Shown here in pieces: positions 3,937-51,191 of a stretch of DNA of 64,000 nucleotides (positions are counted from its first letter, which is position 1; every line of letters starts with the position of its first letter). The position numbers were made by a program, and so were the translations under genes. The DNA comes from Treponema sp. Lineage in GTDB: Bacteria > Spirochaetota > Spirochaetia > Treponematales > Treponemataceae. The stretch lies in contig JAFUFU010000036.1 in the NCBI GenBank assembly GCA_017469785.1, positions 19,004 to 83,003 on the forward strand, in the 5' to 3' direction. A model generated the notes under the pieces. The model was not told the origin of the DNA and searched no databases. It was given only the letters and a program-made list of their open reading frames with translations.

Positions 3937-5592
3937 TTAATATCCATCGCTCATGGCTCGGTTCAAATCGCGCTGGTAAAGCTCGGCATAGACAGGGCTT
4001 CGCATCTTGAGGTCGTCTTTTTTGGCTTGATTGAACGGGACGAAACGCCAGAATACGGCACGCAATTCTTTGTCCATGCGCTGGATACCGTCAACTTCTT
4101 TTGTCATCCAGAGAACATAATCAGCGATGAAGTATGATTTAAGATCACCCTTGAGTTTCTGGCGCTCAATCCACTGGTAATACTGACCGGTCAAGCCTTC
4201 CTCCATCCAGTAATAACTTGCCTTTTCTTTTGCAACCTGCCATCGTAAGTCAGCGACAGCCATGAGAATGGCAATTTTTAGATCACGCGGATACATTGGA
4301 ATGACGATTCGTCCACGGCTTGTAACGCGGTTGTATCGGTCGAAAGGCTCCCAGCAGAAACCAAAATCGCCGTAGGTAGGAAGACAGAGAACATAAGGAA
4401 CAATGCGGTTCTTCATGTTTTTGTGGATTCGGACGAAGCACTCCGGGTCATTATCCTCGACCCATTTGAGAATATTGAGTACGTTTTCGCGGAATCCTGT
4501 GAGACGAGGCACACAATGGTAGAATTCCCGCGTAAAAATCGGGAACTGATTACCCTGACGGCCACAAGTCATTTTTGCCATCTGTCGCACGGTCTGATAT
4601 TCAATCATCAAATCGCCGGTACTGACTTCAACCGCCTCAGGCTGCATAGACATCTTGTCCTGAAGAGAAGTGCCAATTGCTTTTGCTTCTTCAAATTCTT
4701 TGAGATAGCCTGCAAGCTCCTTATCAAGTTTCTGCAAGGCACGGAGTTTTTCCTGAATTTCTCCAAAGAGACGTTTTTGTCCGTCAGTATAAGGCTGCTT
4801 GTGCGGTTCCAGCCCCAGCATCAGATTATGTTCGCAGAGAGAATCAATACGGTTCCTAAGCTCATTTTCGAGCATCTGACGCTCAGCTTCCTTTGAGTTG
4901 AGAAGACTTTCGGCGTTCTGCAATTTGCCGTCATTCTTGCTTTTGAGCTGCTGAATTCGCTGGGCCTCGGCGCCGGGGTCGTTTTTGCGCGGAGCACGGG
5001 CCTCGTCAGTGGCAGACAGATTGAGCCGGCCAGATGCGATTTCGCGGAACCATTCATCCATGTAATAAACAGGCTCACCAGTGTTGTTTTCGATAATTAC
5101 GGTTGAGAACAGCTGCTTCTGCTCCGGCGTGAAGAGGGATGGCAAAACGACGCCGAAACGCATGAGCATCTGCTTTGGTTTTTCCAGATTACGGTCGCTG
5201 GCTTTGGGACACATTACGCGGATAAGCTCCCACCATGAAGTGACGAGCTGCTGACGATAGACGGTCCTGTCTTTGGGATCCTGACAGGTGAGGTATTTTG
5301 ATAGAATCTTGTGCACACGCTGTCCCTGCTCACCTTCACCACCAAGTGCCGTTTTATAATATGAGGTGCCGTCAAAAATATGATTAGACTCTTCTTCGTA
5401 GAATTTTGTAATTTCCTTGAAGCCCTGCTGGGACAAATCGACTTTGTGCGCACTGTCACGTGGTAAATTTTCAGCCTTTTTCTCAGGTGGTTCAGAAATA
5501 TCTTTGAAAGACGGTAACTCGCTAGGTCCTACATCAGCCTGGGTTTCAGCAAGCAATGCCGCGATGGTTGGGTCCAAATCTTGATCTGTCAT
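3937..5592 (-). CDS. Unknown large cytoplasmic protein with central coiled coil
   Basis: A 551-residue protein without signal peptide or membrane segment that I cannot place in a family. The N-terminal ~60 residues are acidic and probably disordered. Residues ~200-310 are rich in E, K, Q and heptad-like leucines (for example NAESLLNSKEAERQMLENEL), which predicts a coiled coil. The C-terminal ~200 residues form a compact, aromatic-rich domain (for example YGDFGFCWEPFDRYNRVTSR) with RGRIVIPMYPRDLKIAILMA. It stands alone between pta and birA on the minus strand. No catalytic motif was recognised. Confidence 0.7.
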   Translation of the reverse strand: MTDQDLDPTIAALLAETQADVGPSELPSFKDISEPPEKKAENLPRDSAHKVDLSQQGFKEITKFYEEESNHIFDGTSYYKTALGGEGEQGQRVHKILSKYLTCQDPKDRTVYRQQLVTSWWELIRVMCPKASDRNLEKPKQMLMRFGVVLPSLFTPEQKQLFSTVIIENNTGEPVYYMDEWFREIASGRLNLSATDEARAPRKNDPGAEAQRIQQLKSKNDGKLQNAESLLNSKEAERQMLENELRNRIDSLCEHNLMLGLEPHKQPYTDGQKRLFGEIQEKLRALQKLDKELAGYLKEFEEAKAIGTSLQDKMSMQPEAVEVSTGDLMIEYQTVRQMAKMTCGRQGNQFPIFTREFYHCVPRLTGFRENVLNILKWVEDNDPECFVRIHKNMKNRIVPYVLCLPTYGDFGFCWEPFDRYNRVTSRGRIVIPMYPRDLKIAILMAVADLRWQVAKEKASYYWMEEGLTGQYYQWIERQKLKGDLKSYFIADYVLWMTKEVDGIQRMDKELRAVFWRFVPFNQAKKDDLKMRSPVYAELYQRDLNRAMSDGY

Positions 5593-5698
5593 ACTGCATT
5601 TATCCTCAAAAATAAAACAAATTCAAATTAATTATAACACATATGGCAAATTTTTTCATCATAATTTTTAGGATTCCTGCCTTTAAAGATATCTGCTG

Positions 5699-6775
5699 TC
5701 AGACGAAATCATAGGAGTGCAGGGAAATTTCTCCAGAATTCAGTTTTTTTATTTCGTGCTCTTCTGTCTCGACAACAAGGCGCATTTCATCGTCAACATC
5801 TTTTACAATGGCTCTGTAAGTTTCCCCGGAAAGACCTGCAACAGGGTTTACGGTCACGCTTTTTCCTGCAAGCATTGAAAGCGAGCGATAATTCATGATT
5901 ATTTCTGATTTTGCCTGCTCATCATCGCTTTCAAAAGTCTTGTAGAACATTATGAGATTTTTTATGACCTCTGAGACAAGCTGATTTTTAGTACATGGCG
6001 TAAAATTTTCGCCTCTGGAGATTTTTGCCTCCTCAATACTTCCGGCAATTTTGGCAAGTTCTCCGGTTATATCAGGATTTTTACGGATATTTATCCCGAT
6101 GCCCACAACAGCCGCATCAATGCTGCCTGTCTCGAAATTCGTGATTCCCTCAACAAGGATACCGCATATTTTTTTTCCGGCAAGAAATACGTCATTCACC
6201 CATTTAATCTGCGGATTTTCCCCAAAAAGACTTTTGACCGCATTTGAGACTGCAAGGGCCGCCGCCGCCGTGTAAAGAGCAGGATTTTTTACACCACCCC
6301 GGGGTGAATAGAGAAGCGAAAAATACACCCCTGTTTCCGCAGGAGAGACGAAAGTACGACCCAGTCTCCCCTTTCCACCTGTTTGCATTTCGGCAGCAAA
6401 CAGCGAGATATGGGCTGTTTTGCCTTTTTCGGTAAGATTTCCTTCCGCGTCCCGGAAAGCCCCCACTTCTACAGCGCGCCGCTTTGCCTCAGAATTTGTG
6501 GAATCTATCGAATCAAAAGTATAGACATGCACTGGAGACGTGCCGGAAATCAAGCGGGATATTTCCCCTGCGTCCAGCTTGTCAGGCTTTGAAAGCAGCT
6601 TATAGCCCCTGTTCGTGACAGCCTGAATTCTATAGCCATCGCTTTCAAGTGAGCGAATTGCCTTCCAGATTGCCGTTCGGGAGACTCCGCAAGAAAGGGC
6701 AAGCTGCTCACCGGAAAGAAATTCGTCCTTTTTTAGAGAAAGAAGTGTTTGAAGAACGCTGTTTTTCGTAGACAT
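5699..6775 (-). CDS. birA: Bifunctional biotin ligase / biotin operon repressor
   Basis: Activates biotin as biotinyl-AMP and transfers it to a lysine of biotin carboxyl carrier domains; the N-terminal helix-turn-helix lets such proteins repress biotin genes. Seen: winged HTH at residues ~15-65 (SGEQLALSCGVSRTAIWKAI), substrate loop GGKGRLGRTFVSP (about 130), IKWVNDVFLAGKKICGILVE (about 195) and a C-terminal SH3-like part. The length of 358 is somewhat longer than E. coli BirA. Its ATG overlaps the stop of the upstream PII-like gene by one base (TAATG), so they are co-translated; a functional link to nitrogen genes is not obvious. Confidence 0.93.
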   Translation of the reverse strand: MSTKNSVLQTLLSLKKDEFLSGEQLALSCGVSRTAIWKAIRSLESDGYRIQAVTNRGYKLLSKPDKLDAGEISRLISGTSPVHVYTFDSIDSTNSEAKRRAVEVGAFRDAEGNLTEKGKTAHISLFAAEMQTGGKGRLGRTFVSPAETGVYFSLLYSPRGGVKNPALYTAAAALAVSNAVKSLFGENPQIKWVNDVFLAGKKICGILVEGITNFETGSIDAAVVGIGINIRKNPDITGELAKIAGSIEEAKISRGENFTPCTKNQLVSEVIKNLIMFYKTFESDDEQAKSEIIMNYRSLSMLAGKSVTVNPVAGLSGETYRAIVKDVDDEMRLVVETEEHEIKKLNSGEISLHSYDFV

Positions 6776-41342: not shown

Positions 41343-43196
41343 CTAATAGGCTTCATCATGCACCCCCGCTATGGCCCTTCCGCTGGGCTCGTCCATGTTT
41401 TTCCAGGCGGCGTCCCATTCAAGGGCTTTTGCCGTTGAGCAGGCAACTCCCGCCTCATGAGGAACGCATTTTGCGGCGGAATCGCTGGGGAAGAGACGGC
41501 TGTAGATTTCGCGGTAGTAATATTCTTCCTTTGTTTTTGGCGGATTTACGGGGAAGCGGTTTTCGCGGCGGGCAAATTCCTGATCGCTGACTTTCTCCTC
41601 GGTGATTTTTTTCAGGGTGTCAATCCAGTTGTAGCCCACGCCGTCAGAGAACTGCTCTTTTTGCCGCCATGCGATGTTTTCCGGGAGCAGGTCTTCAAAG
41701 GCCTTGCGCAAAATCCATTTTTCAATCCGCTGCTTTCCTTCGGGGAGGCGGATGCTCATTTTGTCGCTGGGGTTAAGGCTCATGGCGATGTCGATAAAAT
41801 CTTTATCAAGGAAGGGAACGCGGCCTTCCACGCCCCATGCCATAAGGCTCTTGTTCGCGCGGAGACAGTCGTAAAGGTGGAGCTTACTCATTTTTCGCAC
41901 CAGCTCTTCGTGGAATTCTTTAGCGTCAGGCGCCTTGTGGAAGTAAAGGTAGCCGCCGAAAAGCTCATCGCTTCCCTCCCCCGAAAGAACCATTTTGATT
42001 CCCATTGATTTTATAACCCGGGCCAGAAGATACATGGGCGTGCTTGCCCTCACCGTGGTGATGTCGTAGGTCTCGATGTGATAGATTACATCCGGCAGGG
42101 CGTCCAGCGCTTCCTGAATGGTGAAGTGGACTTCGTGATGAACGGTGCCGATGTAGTCGGCAGCCTTTTGGGCGGCGATTAAGTCTGGCGAGCCTTCCAG
42201 GCCGATTGCGAAAGAGTGGAGCTGTGGCCACCAGGCGCTTTCCTTGCTGTCACTTTCGATTCGCTTTTTAGAGAATTTCTGGGTGATTGCGGCGATGATT
42301 GAAGAGTCCAGACCGCCTGAAAGAAGCACGCCGTAGGGAACATCGCTCATAAGCTGGGCTTTTACCGCCGTTTCCAGGCCGTTCCTAACTTTTTCAATCA
42401 CGGCGGGGTTGATGATTTCCCCCTTATCGTCAGCGGCTTTGGGAGAATTCTTAACAGAGTCGTAGTTTTCCCAGTCACGGTGATACCATTTCACGGGTTT
42501 AACTTGTGAGCAGGCGTTGCGGGCGGCGTCTGAGCCCGCAGAAGGGGTAGCGGAAGACGCGTTCGCGGCTGGAGCGAGGGGAAGGCTTTCCCCTTCTGAT
42601 TTCTCCTTGCTATACAAATAGCTTCCGTTGGGGAATTCTTCGATTGTGACGCACTCTCCCTCCAGGGCTTTCAGCTCGCTTGCGACATAGTAGCGGCCGG
42701 CCTTGTCCCAGCCCTGATAAAGGGGGATTACGCCGATTTCGTCCCTGGCAATCAGGTAGGCGTCGCGCTCGCTGTCGTAGAGGGCAAAGGCGAAAATACC
42801 GGAAAGTTCTTCAATCATGGCGGAAAAGTCGCCGCTCTCCCGGTATTTTTTGTAAAGGGGCAGGATTACCTCGCAGTCGCTCCCGGTAAGGAAATGATAG
42901 CTTTGGGCGAACTGGGCGCGGAGATTTTTGTGATTGTAGATTTCGCCGTTAGCCGCAAGAATCAGCTTTCCGTCGTCGCTTACAAGGGGCTGCTTTCCGC
43001 TCAAGGGGTCAACGATTGAAAGACGCTCGTGGCTTAAAATGGCATTGTCGCCGGTGTAAACGCCGCTCCAGTCCGGCCCGCGGTGACGGATTTTCTTGCT
43101 CATTTCCAGCACCTGGGCGCGAAGCTCTTCTTTCAAGCCCTGAGCTATGGGCTGGCTTCCGCTGTTCAAATCAAAACATCCTACAAATCCACACAT
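41343..43196 (-). CDS. asnB: Glutamine-hydrolysing asparagine synthetase
   Basis: Makes asparagine from aspartate, ATP and glutamine amide. Start set at 43196, because the mature enzyme needs the N-terminal cysteine nucleophile (MCGFVGCFDLNSG); GAGGAG lies about 10 bases upstream. The 617 residues show the Ntn glutaminase domain (RHRGPDWSGVY, SHERLSIVD, LAANGEIYNHKNLR) and the PP-loop synthetase domain (VLLSGGLDSSIIAAIT, LSGEGSDELFGGYLYF, RVPFLDKDF). A ~170-base leader precedes it with a terminator hairpin at its 5' end shared with glnA (see 43306-43365), so expression is probably attenuated. Confidence 0.95.
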   Translation of the reverse strand: MCGFVGCFDLNSGSQPIAQGLKEELRAQVLEMSKKIRHRGPDWSGVYTGDNAILSHERLSIVDPLSGKQPLVSDDGKLILAANGEIYNHKNLRAQFAQSYHFLTGSDCEVILPLYKKYRESGDFSAMIEELSGIFAFALYDSERDAYLIARDEIGVIPLYQGWDKAGRYYVASELKALEGECVTIEEFPNGSYLYSKEKSEGESLPLAPAANASSATPSAGSDAARNACSQVKPVKWYHRDWENYDSVKNSPKAADDKGEIINPAVIEKVRNGLETAVKAQLMSDVPYGVLLSGGLDSSIIAAITQKFSKKRIESDSKESAWWPQLHSFAIGLEGSPDLIAAQKAADYIGTVHHEVHFTIQEALDALPDVIYHIETYDITTVRASTPMYLLARVIKSMGIKMVLSGEGSDELFGGYLYFHKAPDAKEFHEELVRKMSKLHLYDCLRANKSLMAWGVEGRVPFLDKDFIDIAMSLNPSDKMSIRLPEGKQRIEKWILRKAFEDLLPENIAWRQKEQFSDGVGYNWIDTLKKITEEKVSDQEFARRENRFPVNPPKTKEEYYYREIYSRLFPSDSAAKCVPHEAGVACSTAKALEWDAAWKNMDEPSGRAIAGVHDEAY

Positions 43197-43230
43197 AAAA
43201 CAATGAGACTCCTCTTTATTAAAAAAATCT

Positions 43231-43305
43231 GCCACAAGGATGTGGCACAAAGCCCGATATCGCAAGAATTTTGCCTGCAAAATTCTTGTCGCGACATGGA
43301 TGTCG
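43231..43305 (+). repeat. Tandem GGA-loop hairpins in the asnB leader region, copy 3
   Basis: GCCAC/GTGGC around loop AAGGAT (43231-43246), CAAGAATTTTGC/GCAAAATTCTTG (43263-43288) and CGAC/GTCG around ATGGAT (43292-43305). Loops have the A-N-GGA-U form on the plus strand, antisense to asnB. Confidence 0.65.
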
Positions 43306-43365
43306 AAAAAAAAGAGGCCACAGACAATGCCCCGTAAAAGGGAATTATCTGCGACCTCTTTGTCG
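43306..43365 (-). promoter_or_regulatory. asnB leader: hexaloop antiterminator hairpin and terminator
   Basis: Read on the minus strand. Hairpin 1: CGAC (43365-43362), hexaloop AAAGAG (43361-43356), GTCG (43355-43352). Competing terminator: AAGAGGTCGCAGA (43360-43348) pairs over 13 base pairs, two of them G-U, with TCTGTGGCCTCTT (43324-43312), and is followed by U residues down to 43306. The two structures share bases and are exclusive. The loop has A at position 1 and G at position 4, as in ANTAR target RNAs. The transcript should start at about 43366, so this is the very 5' end. Confidence 0.75.
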
Positions 43366-43373
43366 TTTTGAAT

Positions 43374-43403
43374 TTTATACATCAAAGCCGATTCCTTTGT
43401 CAA
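43374..43403 (-). promoter_or_regulatory. asnB promoter
   Basis: Minus strand TTGACA (43403-43398), 18-base spacer, TATAAA (43379-43374). Confidence 0.8.
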
Positions 43404-43412
43404 TGCGGAGAG

Positions 43413-43441
43413 TTGCAAAATCTTCTGCAATCCACTAGAAT
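43413..43441 (+). promoter_or_regulatory. glnA promoter
   Basis: TTGCAA (43413-43418), 17-base spacer, TAGAAT (43436-43441). It is divergent from the asnB promoter, with 9 bases between the two -35 boxes. Confidence 0.8.
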
Positions 43442-43452
43442 ATTTTCAAGTA

Positions 43453-43517
43453 ACGGCAAAGAGGTCGTAGGTTTTTCGCCATAAGTGTTTTTCGGCGCAA
43501 AGTCTACGGCCTTTTTT
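43453..43517 (+). promoter_or_regulatory. glnA leader: hexaloop antiterminator hairpin and terminator
   Basis: Hairpin 1: ACGGC (43453-43457), hexaloop AAAGAG (43458-43463), GTCGT (43464-43468). Competing terminator: AAGAGGTCGTAG (43459-43470) pairs with CTACGGCCTTTT (43504-43515), then U. Compared with the asnB leader, the first 18 bases (ACGRCAAAGAGGTCGYAG) and the 3' arm (TCTRYGGCCTYTTTT) are conserved while the middle differs, and stem changes are pairing-preserving (G-U for A-U). The terminator ends 3-4 bases before the ribosome site of glnA. Confidence 0.78.
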
Positions 43518-43530
43518 CATGGAGAAGCAG

Positions 43531-44703
43531 ATGTTATACACACAGGAAGAAGTTTTAGATTATGTAAAAGAGGAAGATGTCAAATTCGTGCGCCTTGCAT
43601 ATTTTGACCTCTCAGGCAAGCAGAAAAACGCCACGATTATGGCGAGCGAACTTCCCAGGGCTTTTGAGAACGGTGTCGCTTTTGACGCCTCGGCCATCGA
43701 TGACTTTGAGGAGGCCAACAAGGCGGATCTTTTTCTCTTTCCAGACGCTTCAACACTCTCCGTCCTGCCTTGGCGGCCAAGCTCGGGCAAAGTCATACGC
43801 ATGTTCTGCGACATCCGGCGCTCGGACGGCTCTCCATACAAAAAAGATTGCCGCCACCTGCTTAAAGAAGCAGCCAGAAAAATCAAGGGCGAATGCGGCG
43901 TAGACCTTCAGATTGGCACGGAATTTGAATTCTATCTCTTCAAACTGGACGAAAACAGCGAGGCGACGAAAATTCCTTTCGACAAGGCCGGCTACATGGA
44001 CATCGCCCCGGAAGACAAGGGAGAAAATATCCGCCGCAATATCTGCTTCACTTTGGAACAGATGGGTATCACGCCGGAATCAAGCCATCACGAGGAAGGC
44101 CCCGGCCAGAATGAAGTCGATTTCCGCTATTCAGATCCGCTCACTGCCGCCGACAACGCTTCAACTTTCAAATGGATTGTACGCACAAAGGCAGCAGAAA
44201 GCGGTCTGTACGCAGATTTTTCCCCGAAACCGCTTTTAGACAAGCCGGGAAGCGGAATGCACATCAACATTTCCTGCTCGGATGCAAATAAAAATGACCA
44301 GATTCTCGCGGGAATCCTCAGTCATATTGAAGAAATCACTTATTTCCTCAATCCAACGGAGAATTCCTACAATCGCCTCGGCGAACTCAAGGCTCCACGA
44401 TTCATCTGTTGGGGAAAGGAAAACCGCTCGGCCCTGATTCGCGTGCCAGCAAGCAAGGACAAAATGCGTCTGGAAATCCGCTCGCCGGATCCAAGCTGCA
44501 ATCCCTACATCGCCTTTACACTGCTCATTCATGCGGCAATCGACGGAATCAAGAATAAGCTGCAGCCACCGGCCCCCGCCACAGAAAATCTCTTCGACTC
44601 GGCGGTGGCAAAAAAAGTCAGCTACAAGACGATTCCAGACACCATTGAGGAATCACGGGAACTCGCCCTCAACAGCAGCTTCATCAAGGAAATCTTAGGC
44701 TGA
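43531..44703 (+). CDS. glnA: Glutamine synthetase, type I family
   Basis: Forms glutamine from glutamate and ammonia with ATP. Start at 43531 (MLYTQEEVLDYVKEED), chosen because GGAG lies 6 bases upstream; an ATG at 43519 directly abuts the terminator. 390 residues, shorter than the ~440 of classic GSI. Motifs: IGTEFEFYLFKLD (metal/glutamate), HHEEGPGQNEVDFRY, GSGMHINISCSD, NRLGELKAP, ENRSALIRVPAS and RLEIRSPDPSCNPY. The ANTAR gene follows by 2 bases, so the regulator of the leader is probably co-transcribed with its target. Confidence 0.92.
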   Translation: MLYTQEEVLDYVKEEDVKFVRLAYFDLSGKQKNATIMASELPRAFENGVAFDASAIDDFEEANKADLFLFPDASTLSVLPWRPSSGKVIRMFCDIRRSDGSPYKKDCRHLLKEAARKIKGECGVDLQIGTEFEFYLFKLDENSEATKIPFDKAGYMDIAPEDKGENIRRNICFTLEQMGITPESSHHEEGPGQNEVDFRYSDPLTAADNASTFKWIVRTKAAESGLYADFSPKPLLDKPGSGMHINISCSDANKNDQILAGILSHIEEITYFLNPTENSYNRLGELKAPRFICWGKENRSALIRVPASKDKMRLEIRSPDPSCNPYIAFTLLIHAAIDGIKNKLQPPAPATENLFDSAVAKKVSYKTIPDTIEESRELALNSSFIKEILG

Positions 44704-44705
44704 GA

Positions 44706-45272
44706 ATGACTTCTGACACACATTCTGTCCTTCTTGTGACAAAAGATACGAAGATTTCCTCTCTTGTAAGCCTGATGCTCGCCCCGCCCCTCTTTGAGCT
44801 TTCAGTCTGCACGGATTTCAACGAGGCCCGGCGAAAATGCGATGAACGGAATTTCAACATCGTAATCGCCGACTTTTCCGACGGAGAGGGAACTGATTTT
44901 GCCATTGACATCTCAGATTCTCCTGCCACGATTCTGCTTTTAGCCCCGGCCGAGCATTTTGACCAGATTAGCTTCAAGGTAGAAGGTTACGGAATTCTTA
45001 CGCTCACCAGCCCGTTCGACCAGTTCTATTTTTACAACATGATTAAGGTGGCCATCGCCGTACATTACAAAGTCCAGGTTCTTTCCAGCAAGGCCACGCA
45101 GCTCAAGCAAAAAATGGAAGAAATCAGGCTTGTAAACCGGGCAAAAATGCTTCTCATGCAGGGCAAAAGCATGACGGAACAGGAAGCCCACCGCTACATT
45201 GAAAAAGAAGCAATGGACACCGGCTCAAAAAAGACGGCTGTGGCTGAAATAATAATAAAAACCCTGAGTTGA
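44706..45272 (+). CDS. ANTAR-domain transcription antiterminator with degenerate receiver
   Basis: 188 residues. Residues ~1-110 are a receiver-like domain (SVLLVTKDTKISSLVSLML, NIVIADFSDGEG), in which the usual Lys before Pro is replaced (TLTSPFD), so ordinary phosphorylation is doubtful. A helix joins it to the C-terminal ANTAR domain (QLKQKMEEIRLVNRAKMLLM, QGKSMTEQEAHRYIEKEAMD). ANTAR proteins bind RNA hexaloops with A1 and G4 and prevent termination, mostly in nitrogen genes. It sits 2 bases after glnA, behind the leader described at 43453-43517. Confidence 0.93.
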   Translation: MTSDTHSVLLVTKDTKISSLVSLMLAPPLFELSVCTDFNEARRKCDERNFNIVIADFSDGEGTDFAIDISDSPATILLLAPAEHFDQISFKVEGYGILTLTSPFDQFYFYNMIKVAIAVHYKVQVLSSKATQLKQKMEEIRLVNRAKMLLMQGKSMTEQEAHRYIEKEAMDTGSKKTAVAEIIIKTLS

Positions 45273-48141: not shown

Positions 48142-49497
48142 TTATTCGTATATAAAGGTTTCTTTTGGCCCATCTATAGTCACGTTCTCGAATTTTGCAC
48201 CGGGAGCGTTTCGTACCCTGAAACTCTTTACAGTCACTTCCGGAAGTCCGTAGAACATATCGCTTTCCATCGGCGATCGGTCAGAAGATTCGTCTGTGGT
48301 GAAGTGGCAGTCGCGGATTTCAAGATTGTCGATTGGCATTTCAGGAAGACCTACGATAAATCCAGCGCTGGCCTTGCAATTTTTGCCACGGCAACCGATG
48401 ATTTTGACATCATGAATACGCGGGGTCTCACTCGTAACCGGCTGCTTTTCTAGGGAGAAAAGAGGAGACTTTGTATCTGTGATGCCGCACTTGTAATACA
48501 TGTTCATTGCGATTGGGCAGAGAGTGTCATCCATGACGAGATTTTTTAGCTCAATGTCATACAAGTCACCGCCACGGCCTCGCCGGCTCTTAATTCGGAT
48601 TCCACGGTCAGTGCCGCTCAAATCGCAGTTTTCTGCGTGAACGTGCTGGATTCCGGCCGCCGTTTCTGAGCCGAGGACGATTCCACCGTGAGCAAAGCGG
48701 ACGGTGCAATCCTTGATTGTGACATTGACTGTAGGACGGTTCACGCGGATTCCGTCCGGGCCTGAACCAGATTTGAGACAAATTCCGTCGTCGCCGACAG
48801 CAACAAAACAATTCAGAATCTGGACATTCGTGCATGAATCCACGTCAATTCCATCAGTGTTTGGCGCTGAATAAGGATTTTCGATTTTAAGGTCTCTCAG
48901 AACCAAATCATCGACATAAAGGGGATGAACAGTCCAGAAAGGAGAATTCTTGATGTGAACGCCCTCGAGAGTTACGTGCTGGCAGTTGATGAATTCAATG
49001 AGCGAAGGACGCAGGAACTGTGTCTCTCGGCCGCCGCCACCGCCAGCCTGATTTTCGTATCCCGGGTTCAATTCTGCCAAAGCAAGCTCGTAAGAAGCCA
49101 TGGGTTTTGACTGGCCAGCTGTTTTTTTTGCCTTGACGATACCCCACCAGTCGCTTCCGTTTCCATTTATCAAGCCTTTGCCTGTGACGGTGACATTTTT
49201 GCAGTCTGAGGCACGAATCAAGGAGTGCATGGCATAACATTCAACACCTTCCCAACGGGTGAAGGCAGGCGGATATTCAGACGGATCTGTCAAAAAAGAC
49301 AGTTCGGCGCCTTCTGAAAGCTCAAGAGTTGAGTTGTCGACTAAATCTATCGGGCCTGTAAGCCAAATTCCCGTACCGACGGTAAGTTTTCCGCCACCAT
49401 TTTTTGAAATTTCCTCAAACGCTGCTTTAAAAGAATTCGTATTGTCAAAAGTACCGCCACTTTTTCCACCAAAATCTTTAATATTTACTTCAATCAT
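48142..49497 (-). CDS. GH28 polygalacturonase without signal peptide
   Basis: Hydrolyses galacturonide linkages. 451 residues with a right-handed beta-helix and the GH28 catalytic set: NTDGIDVDSC (N-T-D), VAVGDDGICLKSG (D-D), FAHGGIVLGSET (G-H-G variant with H-G-G) and RGIRIKSRRGRGG (R-I-K). The start MIEVNIKDFGGKSGG has no export signal, so it should act in the cytoplasm on imported oligogalacturonides, like exo-acting relatives. The gene precedes nothing on its strand but the SPOR gene beyond a terminator. It probably works with the pectinesterase 93 bases upstream. Confidence 0.92.
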   Translation of the reverse strand: MIEVNIKDFGGKSGGTFDNTNSFKAAFEEISKNGGGKLTVGTGIWLTGPIDLVDNSTLELSEGAELSFLTDPSEYPPAFTRWEGVECYAMHSLIRASDCKNVTVTGKGLINGNGSDWWGIVKAKKTAGQSKPMASYELALAELNPGYENQAGGGGGRETQFLRPSLIEFINCQHVTLEGVHIKNSPFWTVHPLYVDDLVLRDLKIENPYSAPNTDGIDVDSCTNVQILNCFVAVGDDGICLKSGSGPDGIRVNRPTVNVTIKDCTVRFAHGGIVLGSETAAGIQHVHAENCDLSGTDRGIRIKSRRGRGGDLYDIELKNLVMDDTLCPIAMNMYYKCGITDTKSPLFSLEKQPVTSETPRIHDVKIIGCRGKNCKASAGFIVGLPEMPIDNLEIRDCHFTTDESSDRSPMESDMFYGLPEVTVKSFRVRNAPGAKFENVTIDGPKETFIYE

Positions 49498-49590
49498 ACA
49501 ATCCCTCGTGTGAGTTTTTCACTATTCTTATTTTACTAAGGTTTCATTAGTTCACAAGCGATGAATAAGATATGATTTTGTATTTTTGCG

Positions 49591-50550
49591 TTAAGAAACA
49601 ACAATTTTTACGAGCTGATTTTTTTCATTTTCTGTCATAGTGTAGCCGTGCTTTTCCTGTAAGGCAGTGTCGTAATCGGAGAGAGTGCCGTCAGCATGGA
49701 GGATTTTCGTGCCGTACTCCCGCCAGCCCCATAGGGCGCTTCCCTTTTCGGGATAGACGGCTCGCGTGCCATCTTCGTCAGTCCAAAGGGCAAGGTCGTA
49801 CAAGTCAGAAATGCGGCAGTTGATGAGAGCGATTGAATCCCAGCGGTCAAGGCTGTCTGGCTTTCCAGTTCCCTGTGAGCGACCGATGTAAATTCTGGCC
49901 TTTTTGCCCCGGTCATCGGCAGTGAAGTCGCAGTCGATAAAGACAAATCCAGGCTTTGAATTCCATGCCCGGCTCTGGAGGACATAGGCCGGTCGGTCCC
50001 TTCCCCGGTTGTCGTCTCGGGTGTGAAGAGTGCATTTTTCAAAGACAGAATAATTGCAGTAGCCCCAGATAAAATCCACATCGCCGGTGACATAACAATT
50101 CTTGAAGTGTGAAATTCCCTTTACATGAATCGTGTCCTGGCGGCTGATAAAGCGCATTCCCTCGCAAAAAAGCTCTCCGTCCTGACAGTGAAAGCAAATC
50201 GCTTCCGCCTGATTACCAAGAGAAGCGTCGTCACAAGTTTTGACATGAGTGTTTTCAATAGTAAAATTTTTAAGCGTTACGGAAGTGCATTTTTCGCCAA
50301 AAGTGATGACCGCGCGATTTTCAGTGTCCTTGTGGAAAGCCTCGCAGTTTTCGCCACGGAGAGCGCAGCGGGAAGAATCCCCAGAAGCACTCTCAATCAC
50401 CAGCGGATTAGGCAGATTGTAAAAAATCCGCTGGTGCTCCAGTGCATGATGCTCGCCGTCAGCAAGCAAAATATGAACAAGCTCGCTAGAAGGAGAGATT
50501 TGGGAAAAAATTCCATCAAGAGAATCTTTAGTTGTAAGCGTAATTTCCAT
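49591..50550 (-). CDS. CE8 pectinesterase without signal peptide
   Basis: Removes methyl esters from galacturonate. Start at 50550 (MEITLTTKDSLDGIFSQISP), 2 bases after the stop of the kinase gene upstream; weak ribosome site. 319 residues with CE8 blocks AICFHCQDGELFCEGM, SRQDTIHVKG (Q and D of the active site), GDVDFIWGYCNYSVFEKC (catalytic Asp) and YIGRSQGTGKPDSLDRWDS (Arg). It has no export signal, so demethylation would occur inside the cell. It is in line with the cytoplasmic GH28 enzyme. Confidence 0.9.
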   Translation of the reverse strand: MEITLTTKDSLDGIFSQISPSSELVHILLADGEHHALEHQRIFYNLPNPLVIESASGDSSRCALRGENCEAFHKDTENRAVITFGEKCTSVTLKNFTIENTHVKTCDDASLGNQAEAICFHCQDGELFCEGMRFISRQDTIHVKGISHFKNCYVTGDVDFIWGYCNYSVFEKCTLHTRDDNRGRDRPAYVLQSRAWNSKPGFVFIDCDFTADDRGKKARIYIGRSQGTGKPDSLDRWDSIALINCRISDLYDLALWTDEDGTRAVYPEKGSALWGWREYGTKILHADGTLSDYDTALQEKHGYTMTENEKNQLVKIVVS

Positions 50551-50552
50551 AA

Positions 50553-51191
50553 TTAACTTCTTGCCAGTTCCACAATCCACTTTGCGGTGGCTTCGATTCC
50601 GGCGCTGGTGCTGTTAATCATCATGTCGTAGTTCTTGCGGTCGCCCCAGATGTTTTCAGTGAAAGTGTTGTAGTGGTTTGCACGGCGTTTGTCGATTTGG
50701 ATAATCGTTTTTTTGGCGCAAGACTCGGTTTCCTTGTAGATTTCCTCGATTCGTTTGACTTTTGCATCGATGTCAGCATAGATGAAGACATTGAGCAAGT
50801 CTTTGTTGTCGATTTGGTCAGAGGTTGAGAGAATATAGTCCGCGCAGCGACCGACGATTACGCAAGGTTCTTTTGTGAGACCTAGGATGATTTTGCGCTC
50901 GGCATTAAAAATCTGGTCTGCAAGGGGAAGATTTGCCTGCCCCACAGGTTGCCCCACGCCACCCGCGCTGGTTCCGGCATAGCTGGTTCCCAAAAGCAGG
51001 TTGTAAAGCCAGCCAGAAGAAAGGTTCTGCTCGGTCTTTTTGATGAAATCCGCAGAAAGTCCGCTTTCTTCAGCCGCCAAATCAATGATTTCCTTGTCAT
51101 AGAAAGAATAGCCCAACTGTTCGGCGACCATTTTGCCAATCAAGCGACCGCCAGAACCATATTCACGACTGATTGTAATATATTTTTTCAT
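50553..51191 (-). CDS. Cytidylate kinase-like family protein
   Basis: Start at 51191 (MKKYITISREYGSGGRLIGK) with AGAGG upstream. The 212 residues follow the cytidylate kinase-like (CMK2) family: P-loop-like SREYGSGGRLIGKMVAE, YSFYDKEIIDLAAEESG, CVIVGRCADYIL and FIYADIDAKVKRI. The substrate may be cytidylate or another small molecule. The same operon continues with the pectinesterase, which may be chance. Confidence 0.8.
   Translation of the reverse strand: MKKYITISREYGSGGRLIGKMVAEQLGYSFYDKEIIDLAAEESGLSADFIKKTEQNLSSGWLYNLLLGTSYAGTSAGGVGQPVGQANLPLADQIFNAERKIILGLTKEPCVIVGRCADYILSTSDQIDNKDLLNVFIYADIDAKVKRIEEIYKETESCAKKTIIQIDKRRANHYNTFTENIWGDRKNYDMMINSTSAGIEATAKWIVELARS

Follow-up and report, generated by a model that had tools for sequence, protein, structure and literature searches.

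Two divergent genes of a Treponema sp. genome, asnB and glnA, are preceded by leaders that each carry one small hexaloop hairpin overlapping a predicted transcription terminator, and it is very likely that an ANTAR-domain protein encoded directly behind glnA binds this single hairpin in each leader, keeps the terminator open and lets both genes be transcribed. The genes lie in the window analyzed here, a stretch of 64,000 nucleotides (contig JAFUFU010000036.1 of assembly GCA_017469785.1, positions 19,004 to 83,003, forward strand). As far as sequence can tell, there is good support for the ANTAR protein controlling both asnB and glnA. Taking an ANTAR gene directly behind glnA as our own criterion, the window holds a putative NitR-like system (after NitR of Clostridium saccharobutylicum, see below), and a predicted single-hexaloop, NitR-like class of ANTAR attenuator is present in two phyla, spirochaetes and Clostridia. 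An earlier, sequence-only reading of this DNA had proposed a single regulator for asnB and glnA. Its observations were confirmed and its interpretation is partly supported, since the hairpin/terminator pair is conserved, covaries and tracks the ANTAR gene, and the two genes appear to belong to a larger, glutamine-centred regulon.

Both leaders open with a hairpin of four to five pairs that has a C-G closing pair and the loop AAAGAG (Table 1), separated from the end of the predicted -10 box by 12 nucleotides in the glnA leader and by 8 in the asnB leader. The sequence from the loop onward also serves as the 5' arm of a terminator fold, which has a U run at its end. By themselves the hexaloop hairpins are weak (-5.1 kcal/mol for glnA and -4.1 for asnB), the terminator folds reach -26.4 kcal/mol (43458 to 43516, z -4.75) and -32.6 kcal/mol (43361-43311, z -7.81), and in both leaders folding favours the terminator by more than 20 kcal/mol, so that something would have to hold the small hairpin for glnA and asnB to be expressed. 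The divergent promoters, the AAAGAG hairpin of each leader, the use of its 3' side as the 5' arm of the terminator and the ANTAR gene 2 bp past the end of glnA had all been noticed by the sequence-only reading, and all were recovered here by inspection of the sequence, folds, scans and, for the ANTAR gene, a match to PF03861 (E 2.6e-15, 56.4 bits, curated cut-off 27.3). This is the only PF03861 match of the genome, a 3.24-Mb assembly rated 97% complete.

The sequence CGRCAAAGAGGTCG has three exact copies in the assembly, for an expectation of about 0.1 by our estimate; all three have a terminator behind, and the third lies before gltB. Only units with an overlapping terminator were counted. 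Besides the two of the window, a pattern search followed by two models (R1 and R2) gave eight units in the genome, two in tandem before gltB, two before amtB-PII, two before glnN (a type III glutamine synthetase, PF12437), one before pyrG, with an A.C pair within the hexaloop stem, and a weaker one before gdhA (C28, E 0.004), where the hairpin GAC-AAAGGC-GTC is followed by a terminator and the glutamate dehydrogenase gene. A further weak match, C4 (E 0.04), was left out of this count, no gene having been obtained for it. The amtB-PII leader (locus L032) holds yet another hairpin (5840-5892, minus strand), with the loop GATGAC and thus G at position 1, whose terminator is built with the 5' instead of the 3' side of the hexaloop stem; it may be a decayed or differently wired unit, and was included in a trial alignment and excluded from model R1. 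At the same locus (4014-5744), the ammonium transporter (TIGR00836 at 7-415) has a fused C-terminal PII-like domain; P-II models match it at 465-573, below their curated cut-offs, and it could be a nitrogen sensor for the ANTAR regulator.

Model R1, built from eight units of the own genome (A2), had matches with E <= 0.01 in 93 of 146 genomes of the genus. Among the matches listed, we picked by hand 60 regions from 27 R1-positive genomes, and cmsearch on these regions, the window and two own-genome loci gave 125 matches. The three inner pairs of the hexaloop stem are kept in 114 of them; the other 11 were set aside, four with an A.C stem pair (used again when leaders were grouped) and seven resembling opposite-strand matches of palindromic terminators. 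Weak model matches in three genomes (G034, G049 and G108) were discarded on inspection. In the 114 units, found with a model that itself favours the conserved loop letters (A1, A2, G4), loop positions 2 and 4 are always A and G, respectively, and position 1 is A in 113 and G in one. Position 3 (A 78, T 27, C 5, G 4) and position 5 (A 100, G 14) vary. At position 6 every base occurs (G 89, C 17, A 5, T 3), in all units paired with the 3' arm of the terminator (GC 87, CG 17, AT 5, TA 3, GT 2).

An alignment of 111 rows (A4, 106 of them distinct), fitted to the terminator structure and so biased towards it, has 99.4% of the cells of the terminator helix paired and both-side changes at nine of the ten pairs, with covariation well above that of shuffled and slid versions. 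The hexaloop helix (97.2% of cells paired) has both-side changes at one pair only, its 3' bases being constrained by the terminator as well; at the variable pair of this stem, A.C is rarer than expected (4 vs 8.7, p 0.02). A scan of 878 kb that left the loop unconstrained found 205 overlaps of a hexaloop with a terminator, 162 of them A1/G4, and is supporting rather than independent because the loci had been preselected for matches or an ANTAR gene. Conservation in related genomes, on which the sequence-only reading had been made to depend, was found: the hairpin/terminator pair is kept, with covariation.

The units could be grouped into 97 leaders, 76 with one R1 unit and 21 with two; the first figure is an upper bound, because a hairpin upstream of one leader (L041) proved to be a unit missed by R1 and found by R2. 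The open reading frame (ORF) that comes next, identified by protein match to the genes of this genome, is asnB in 25 leaders, gltB in 20, glnN in 17, glnA in 9 and amtB in 7, including two weak matches, to gltB (L054) and to asnB (L077), that we read by eye as gltD and purF. The other 19 were assigned by eye to pyrG (6), dapF (3), gltD (2) and purF (2), with six left without assignment, one of which is the own amtB leader, for which an incorrect ORF had been picked automatically. With one representative each, NCBIfam confirmed pyrG, gdhA, purF, dapF, gltD, carA (a cut-off piece scoring below its curated score), dapL, asnA and urtA. In another family of the order, a unit precedes carA and glnA (L158 and L159). 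Every target that can be named belongs to nitrogen, glutamine or related amino-acid metabolism, and one predicted type of leader is common to the genes of glutamine synthesis, ammonium uptake and glutamate synthesis and to several glutamine amidotransferases. Five head-to-head pairs of leaders within 300 bp, with differing gene pairs, were found among the 97 (L042, L046, L048, L050 and the window, 43352-43468), and convergent pairs within 1 kb were absent from the same set. A dimer bridging two nascent transcripts at head-to-head promoters was considered and rejected as a general mechanism, since in the pieces fetched no such neighbour was seen for most leaders.

The presence of the RNA units tracks that of the ANTAR gene. 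In the genus sample, this gene is found in 126 of the 146 genomes, and R1 matches in 87 of these 126 vs 6 of the 20 without it (Fisher, 0.0011); among genomes at least 90% complete, the figures are 36 of 52 and 2 of 12 (0.0012). Across 213 genomes of the order, 34 have both, 2 the RNA only, 21 the ANTAR gene only and 156 neither (1.4e-22), with two of the 55 ANTAR matches below the family cut-off; within the same genus, the corresponding numbers in this sample are 29, 1, 8 and 12 (1.1e-5). The gene also keeps its place: in spirochaetes, 51 of 54 ANTAR ORFs come immediately after glnA, in a set of regions fetched in part around leaders and otherwise mostly around the ANTAR gene itself. The best solved relatives of the window protein are Rv1626, EutV, AmiR (1qo0) and NasR (4akk). 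In the 54 ORFs, the positions that we mapped to the EutV RNA contacts K149, E160 and M172 are invariant, position 143 is always Arg or Lys, and position 147 is so in 53.

Well-studied ANTAR attenuators are described as dual, and the leaders could be this canonical motif with a cryptic first hexaloop (P1), hidden by a weak stem, a different loop or its location in a neighbouring tandem unit. For EutV, both hairpins are required for antitermination in vivo, deletion of the eut P1 abolishes induction, and changes to the linker are harmful (PMC3369931), which counts against a single-hexaloop switch; furthermore, the gltB, amtB and glnN leaders of this genome carry two or three units. However, predicted starts leave almost no space for P1 in spirochaetes. 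For 86 of 97 leaders, the best-scoring -10 box in the 140 nucleotides upstream ends 15 nucleotides or less before the stem (14 of 97 with shuffled upstream sequence); a start some 6-7 nucleotides after this box leaves no space for a second hairpin. The 130 nucleotides that precede the first unit show no excess of A1/G4 hairpins: there are 6, including one tandem unit that had been missed, and the 15 remaining loop classes give 0-11 each. Within 30 nucleotides upstream, an A1/G4 hexaloop was found for only 8 of 206 spirochaete units. The tandem units each have their own terminator, so that their hexaloops stand much farther apart than the 5-12 nucleotides of eut linkers (PMC3369931). As a control, the same script was run on named eut loci of Enterococcus, Pediococcus, Clostridiaceae, Streptococcaceae and Fusobacterium, where it detected P1 for 10 of the 18 raw units; by eye, the eight without it are about four spurious terminators and about four real-looking leaders, and one of the ten positives looks spurious. 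The test thus succeeds on most eut leaders, but its sensitivity is incomplete, which again weakens the case for one hexaloop, as does the fact that the 76 single leaders are an upper bound. Clostridia offer a direct comparison, with 14 regions that have an ANTAR gene behind glnA and six that we recognized by eye, from the proteins encoded, as eut loci. A P1 whose loop is of the R1/G4 type (R, purine) accompanies 15 of the 16 eut units of this set, 12 of them with A1, and none of the 10 glnA-linked units (Fisher, 2.1e-6 and, with A1 only, 2.0e-4), two pairs of loci being near-identical. These ten precede glnA (6) and amtB (3), both by protein match, and purA (1, by eye); one candidate (L205+1428) had been dropped as spurious before counting, and 4 of the 14 glnA-linked regions yielded no unit. 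The -10 box lies within 15 nucleotides of the stem in only 4 of the 10, and mostly 17-34 nucleotides away in the others, so that the clostridial argument rests on the missing hairpin and not on a lack of room; extreme promoter proximity is, on these predictions, a spirochaete feature. We therefore consider a hidden P1 unlikely. The leaders of the window have the short-stem A1/G4 hexaloop and the terminator overlap of the dual motif, and no second hexaloop was found in them. That only one clear hexaloop per leader could be seen, as the sequence-only reading had remarked, turns out to be a consistent property of the glnA-linked class and not an overlooked second loop.

It is quite unlikely that the leaders are attenuators read by a factor other than an ANTAR protein, such as a small-molecule riboswitch or another protein. 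Such a factor would agree with a link to the ANTAR gene that consists of co-occurrence only, and with the few ANTAR-negative genomes that keep units. Nevertheless, A1/G4 is the known ANTAR signature of the loop, the order-wide association is strong and almost all of the ANTAR genes stand behind glnA. No Rfam family reached its gathering score on the leaders, and the sole match with E < 1 was at chance level. That the units might be ordinary terminators or a spreading repeat element, with no regulation involved, would be in line with the sequence shared by the terminator stems of different leaders, but seems hardly credible given their position right behind predicted promoters and before genes, the covariation, the conserved loop and the restriction of nameable targets to nitrogen, glutamine and related amino-acid metabolism.

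A number of results weigh against ANTAR control through single hexaloops, or restrict it. As a bare 14-mer with up to three mismatches, CGRCAAAGAGGTCG is not enriched over a reversed control (346/372 vs 382/404), and for this reason it is the terminator overlap that defines the site. A simple promoter/terminator scanner did not list the asnB promoter, whose -10 box (TATAAA) lacks the required final T, and listed another site on the minus strand (43372-43344) instead; it also listed neither of the long terminators, which have interrupted stems, and gave a different one on the minus strand at 43247-43230. Since the genomes are related, the Fisher p-values overstate their independence. In the order sample, 21 of the 55 ANTAR genomes have no model match, and for 11 of 20 ANTAR regions the scan without loop constraint gave no unit in the sequence retrieved. 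Conversely, two genomes of this sample have RNA matches and no ANTAR match, G034 (weak, palindromic) and G286 (a pyrG leader), and in the genus two drafts more than 90% complete, G007 and G013, the sources of the credible dapL and asnA leaders, have no detected ANTAR gene, possibly on account of fragmentation (some 280 and 240 contigs). Where EutV has Tyr164, which stacks on G4, 47 of the 54 proteins have His, among them that of the window, and 7 have Gln; at the position of Arg142, 45 have Ile, again including the window, so that RNA recognition may differ from that of EutV. Finally, among the 49 glnA-ANTAR loci open to judgement (three more were too short and two had no long ORF), only 9 have a unit before glnA. 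The feedback of the regulator on its own gene, as suggested by the sequence-only reading, fits this genome, but it is not conserved; with the arrangement of the window in a minority, it is not a general property, and general autoregulation via the glnA leader is rejected. The single-hexaloop claim itself does not depend on conservation of the glnA leader and is unaffected.

Several of the ANTAR-positive, R1-negative genomes have a second ANTAR clade and divergent hexaloops before asnB (AAAGAT, AAAGGT, GAAGGT). Two clades of glnA-linked ANTAR proteins occur in one genus (L127-L166), the receiver of the second reading VLIVSNT...DTPLPDE...PKP, and two clostridial genomes have proteins 42-44% identical to this second clade, possibly by transfer between phyla.

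In the mechanism that we favour, the ANTAR protein encoded behind glnA would bind the single hexaloop hairpin as it leaves the polymerase, and the bound hairpin would prevent formation of the terminator, so that glnA and asnB are read through. Since the predicted start and the hairpin are separated by no more than a few nucleotides, the antiterminator would be the first structure made, and an ANTAR dimer that is active by then could catch it with no need for a recruitment hairpin. One regulator would then set the supply of glutamine together with several glutamine-consuming enzymes, through the gltB, amtB-PII, glnN, pyrG and weaker gdhA units, and would include its own gene, through the glnA leader, in this genome and not in most relatives. 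Read-through would be expected to rise under nitrogen limitation, as reported for the clostridial NitR.

As for the signal, the receiver of the window protein keeps the Asp, but has Ser in place of the Lys and Ala at the Ser/Thr position, and one residue of the acidic pair is missing; it has no receiver Pfam match and does not hold the full residue set of a phospho-receiver. In an alignment of the 14 clostridial glnA-linked proteins, the Asp is missing from 12, the Lys from 10 and both residues from 9, and the 13 other, eut-linked clostridial proteins keep both. From the window receiver, without Lys and Ser/Thr, and these nine relatives, we infer, with less certainty, that the regulator is driven by a partner or ligand and not by classical phosphorylation, the first candidates being glutamine synthetase itself or the AmtB-fused PII. 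The argument is weaker for spirochaetes than for Clostridia: the Asp is kept in 50 and the Lys in 34 of the 54 spirochaete receivers, which makes a general loss of phosphorylation doubtful there and counts against this part of the proposal. The missing Lys pointed out by the sequence-only reading is therefore true of the window but is not a general trait.

The closest known system is NitR, likewise an ANTAR antiterminator of glutamine synthetase and glutamate synthase (GS/GOGAT) genes (PMC6316151). In the present analysis, Clostridia too showed an ANTAR gene adjacent to glnA, as well as glnA and amtB leaders with a single hexaloop, and leaders of NitR-type targets are represented here by the units before glnA, glnN and gltB. 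Unlike NitR, the present system belongs to another phylum, has a wider set of targets (asnB, pyrG, purF, carA, dapF) and mostly retains the receiver Asp, kept in only 2 of the 14 clostridial glnA-linked proteins. With EutV it shares the A1/G4 hexaloop, the terminator overlapping the antiterminator hairpin and an ANTAR domain with the residues mapped to K149, E160 and M172 (PMC3369931, PMC8934654); EutV, however, needs P1 and P2, a short linker and a phosphorylated receiver, whereas the present leaders have a single hexaloop for each terminator and the window protein has a degenerate receiver. AmiR and NasR match the ANTAR part in sequence, and AmiR has a pseudo-receiver (PMC3369931) and a His aligned at the EutV Tyr164 position, but both have dual-hairpin targets at a single locus each (PMC3369931, PMC7496416) and a partner, AmiC, or a fused nitrate-sensing domain. 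The ANTAR nitrogen regulon of Desulfotomaculum acetoxidans is similar in having multiple attenuators in several nitrogen-metabolism transcription units, and different in having been found with a dual-hairpin model (PMC3369931). The terms "treponema" and "spiroch" are absent from the main text of PMC3369931, whose supplementary tables may still hold spirochaete sites. Our literature searches returned nothing linking ANTAR antitermination with Treponema (none of the titles listed for both words concerned the domain), nothing for antitermination and nitrogen regulation in Treponema, and, for a single hexaloop with ANTAR, PMC8934654 only.

More broadly, we lean towards two architectures of ANTAR antitermination, an Eut-like one with dual hexaloops and a phosphorylated receiver, and a NitR-like one, glnA-linked in Spirochaetes and Clostridia, in which one first-made hexaloop would suffice against a moving polymerase with no recruitment hairpin, the regulator is moving away from phosphorylation and a whole glutamine-economy regulon is served. 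EutV binds isolated single hexaloops (PMC8934654) and NasR binds single-hairpin RNA at about 12 uM (PMC7496416). The structural work on EutV left the question of why two hexaloops are needed if the dimer contacts one at a time, and asked whether single-hexaloop sites act at all, perhaps only without the time limit set by the polymerase (PMC8934654). A large natural set of predicted single-hexaloop attenuators addresses this question, as they would act against that time limit, and single and dual designs can be compared directly, because the clostridial single leaders share a family of genomes with dual eut leaders. For these spirochaetes, the ANTAR protein is a candidate nitrogen regulator that would place glutamine-producing and glutamine-consuming enzymes under one RNA switch. 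The covariation and promoter constraints can be used to find more single-hexaloop units.

Table 1. Features of the asnB-glnA region, in window coordinates
Feature	Position	Strand	Details	Basis
asnB, glutamine-hydrolysing asparagine synthase	41343..43196	-		profile PRK09431 (asparagine synthase B), E 8e-256
Second terminator-like hairpin of the asnB leader	43222..43247	-	TGCCACATCCTTGTGGCA plus T run; hairpin 43247-43230; loop ATCCTT, no G4	scan
Predicted intrinsic terminator of the asnB leader	43306..43361	-	including U run	fold
asnB hexaloop hairpin, single (predicted antiterminator)	43352..43365	-	CGAC-AAAGAG-GTCG, loop 43361-43356	sequence, fold
Predicted asnB promoter	43374..43403	-	TTGACA-18-TATAAA	read from sequence
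Predicted sigma-70 promoter of glnA	43413..43441	+	TTGCAA-17-TAGAAT	promoter scan
glnA hexaloop hairpin, single (predicted antiterminator)	43453..43468	+	ACGGC-AAAGAG-GTCGT, loop 43458-43463	sequence, fold, scan; conserved in relatives
Predicted intrinsic terminator of the glnA leader	43458..43517	+	U run 43512-43517; mutually exclusive with hexaloop hairpin	fold
glnA, glutamine synthetase	43519..44703	+		ORF list, profile match
ANTAR-domain regulator	44706..45272	+	188 aa, degenerate receiver-like N-terminus	PF03861

Translation of glnA more probably begins at the ATG at 43531, preceded by GGAG at 43521, than at 43519. The asnB leader also holds, within 43222-43288 on the minus strand, a perfect 12-bp inverted repeat (CAAGAATTTTGC/GCAAAATTCTTG) that occurs once in the window. 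Elsewhere in the window (48142-50580, minus strand), a family 28 glycosidase gene adjoins one for a pectinesterase, which points to the use of pectin by this spirochaete.

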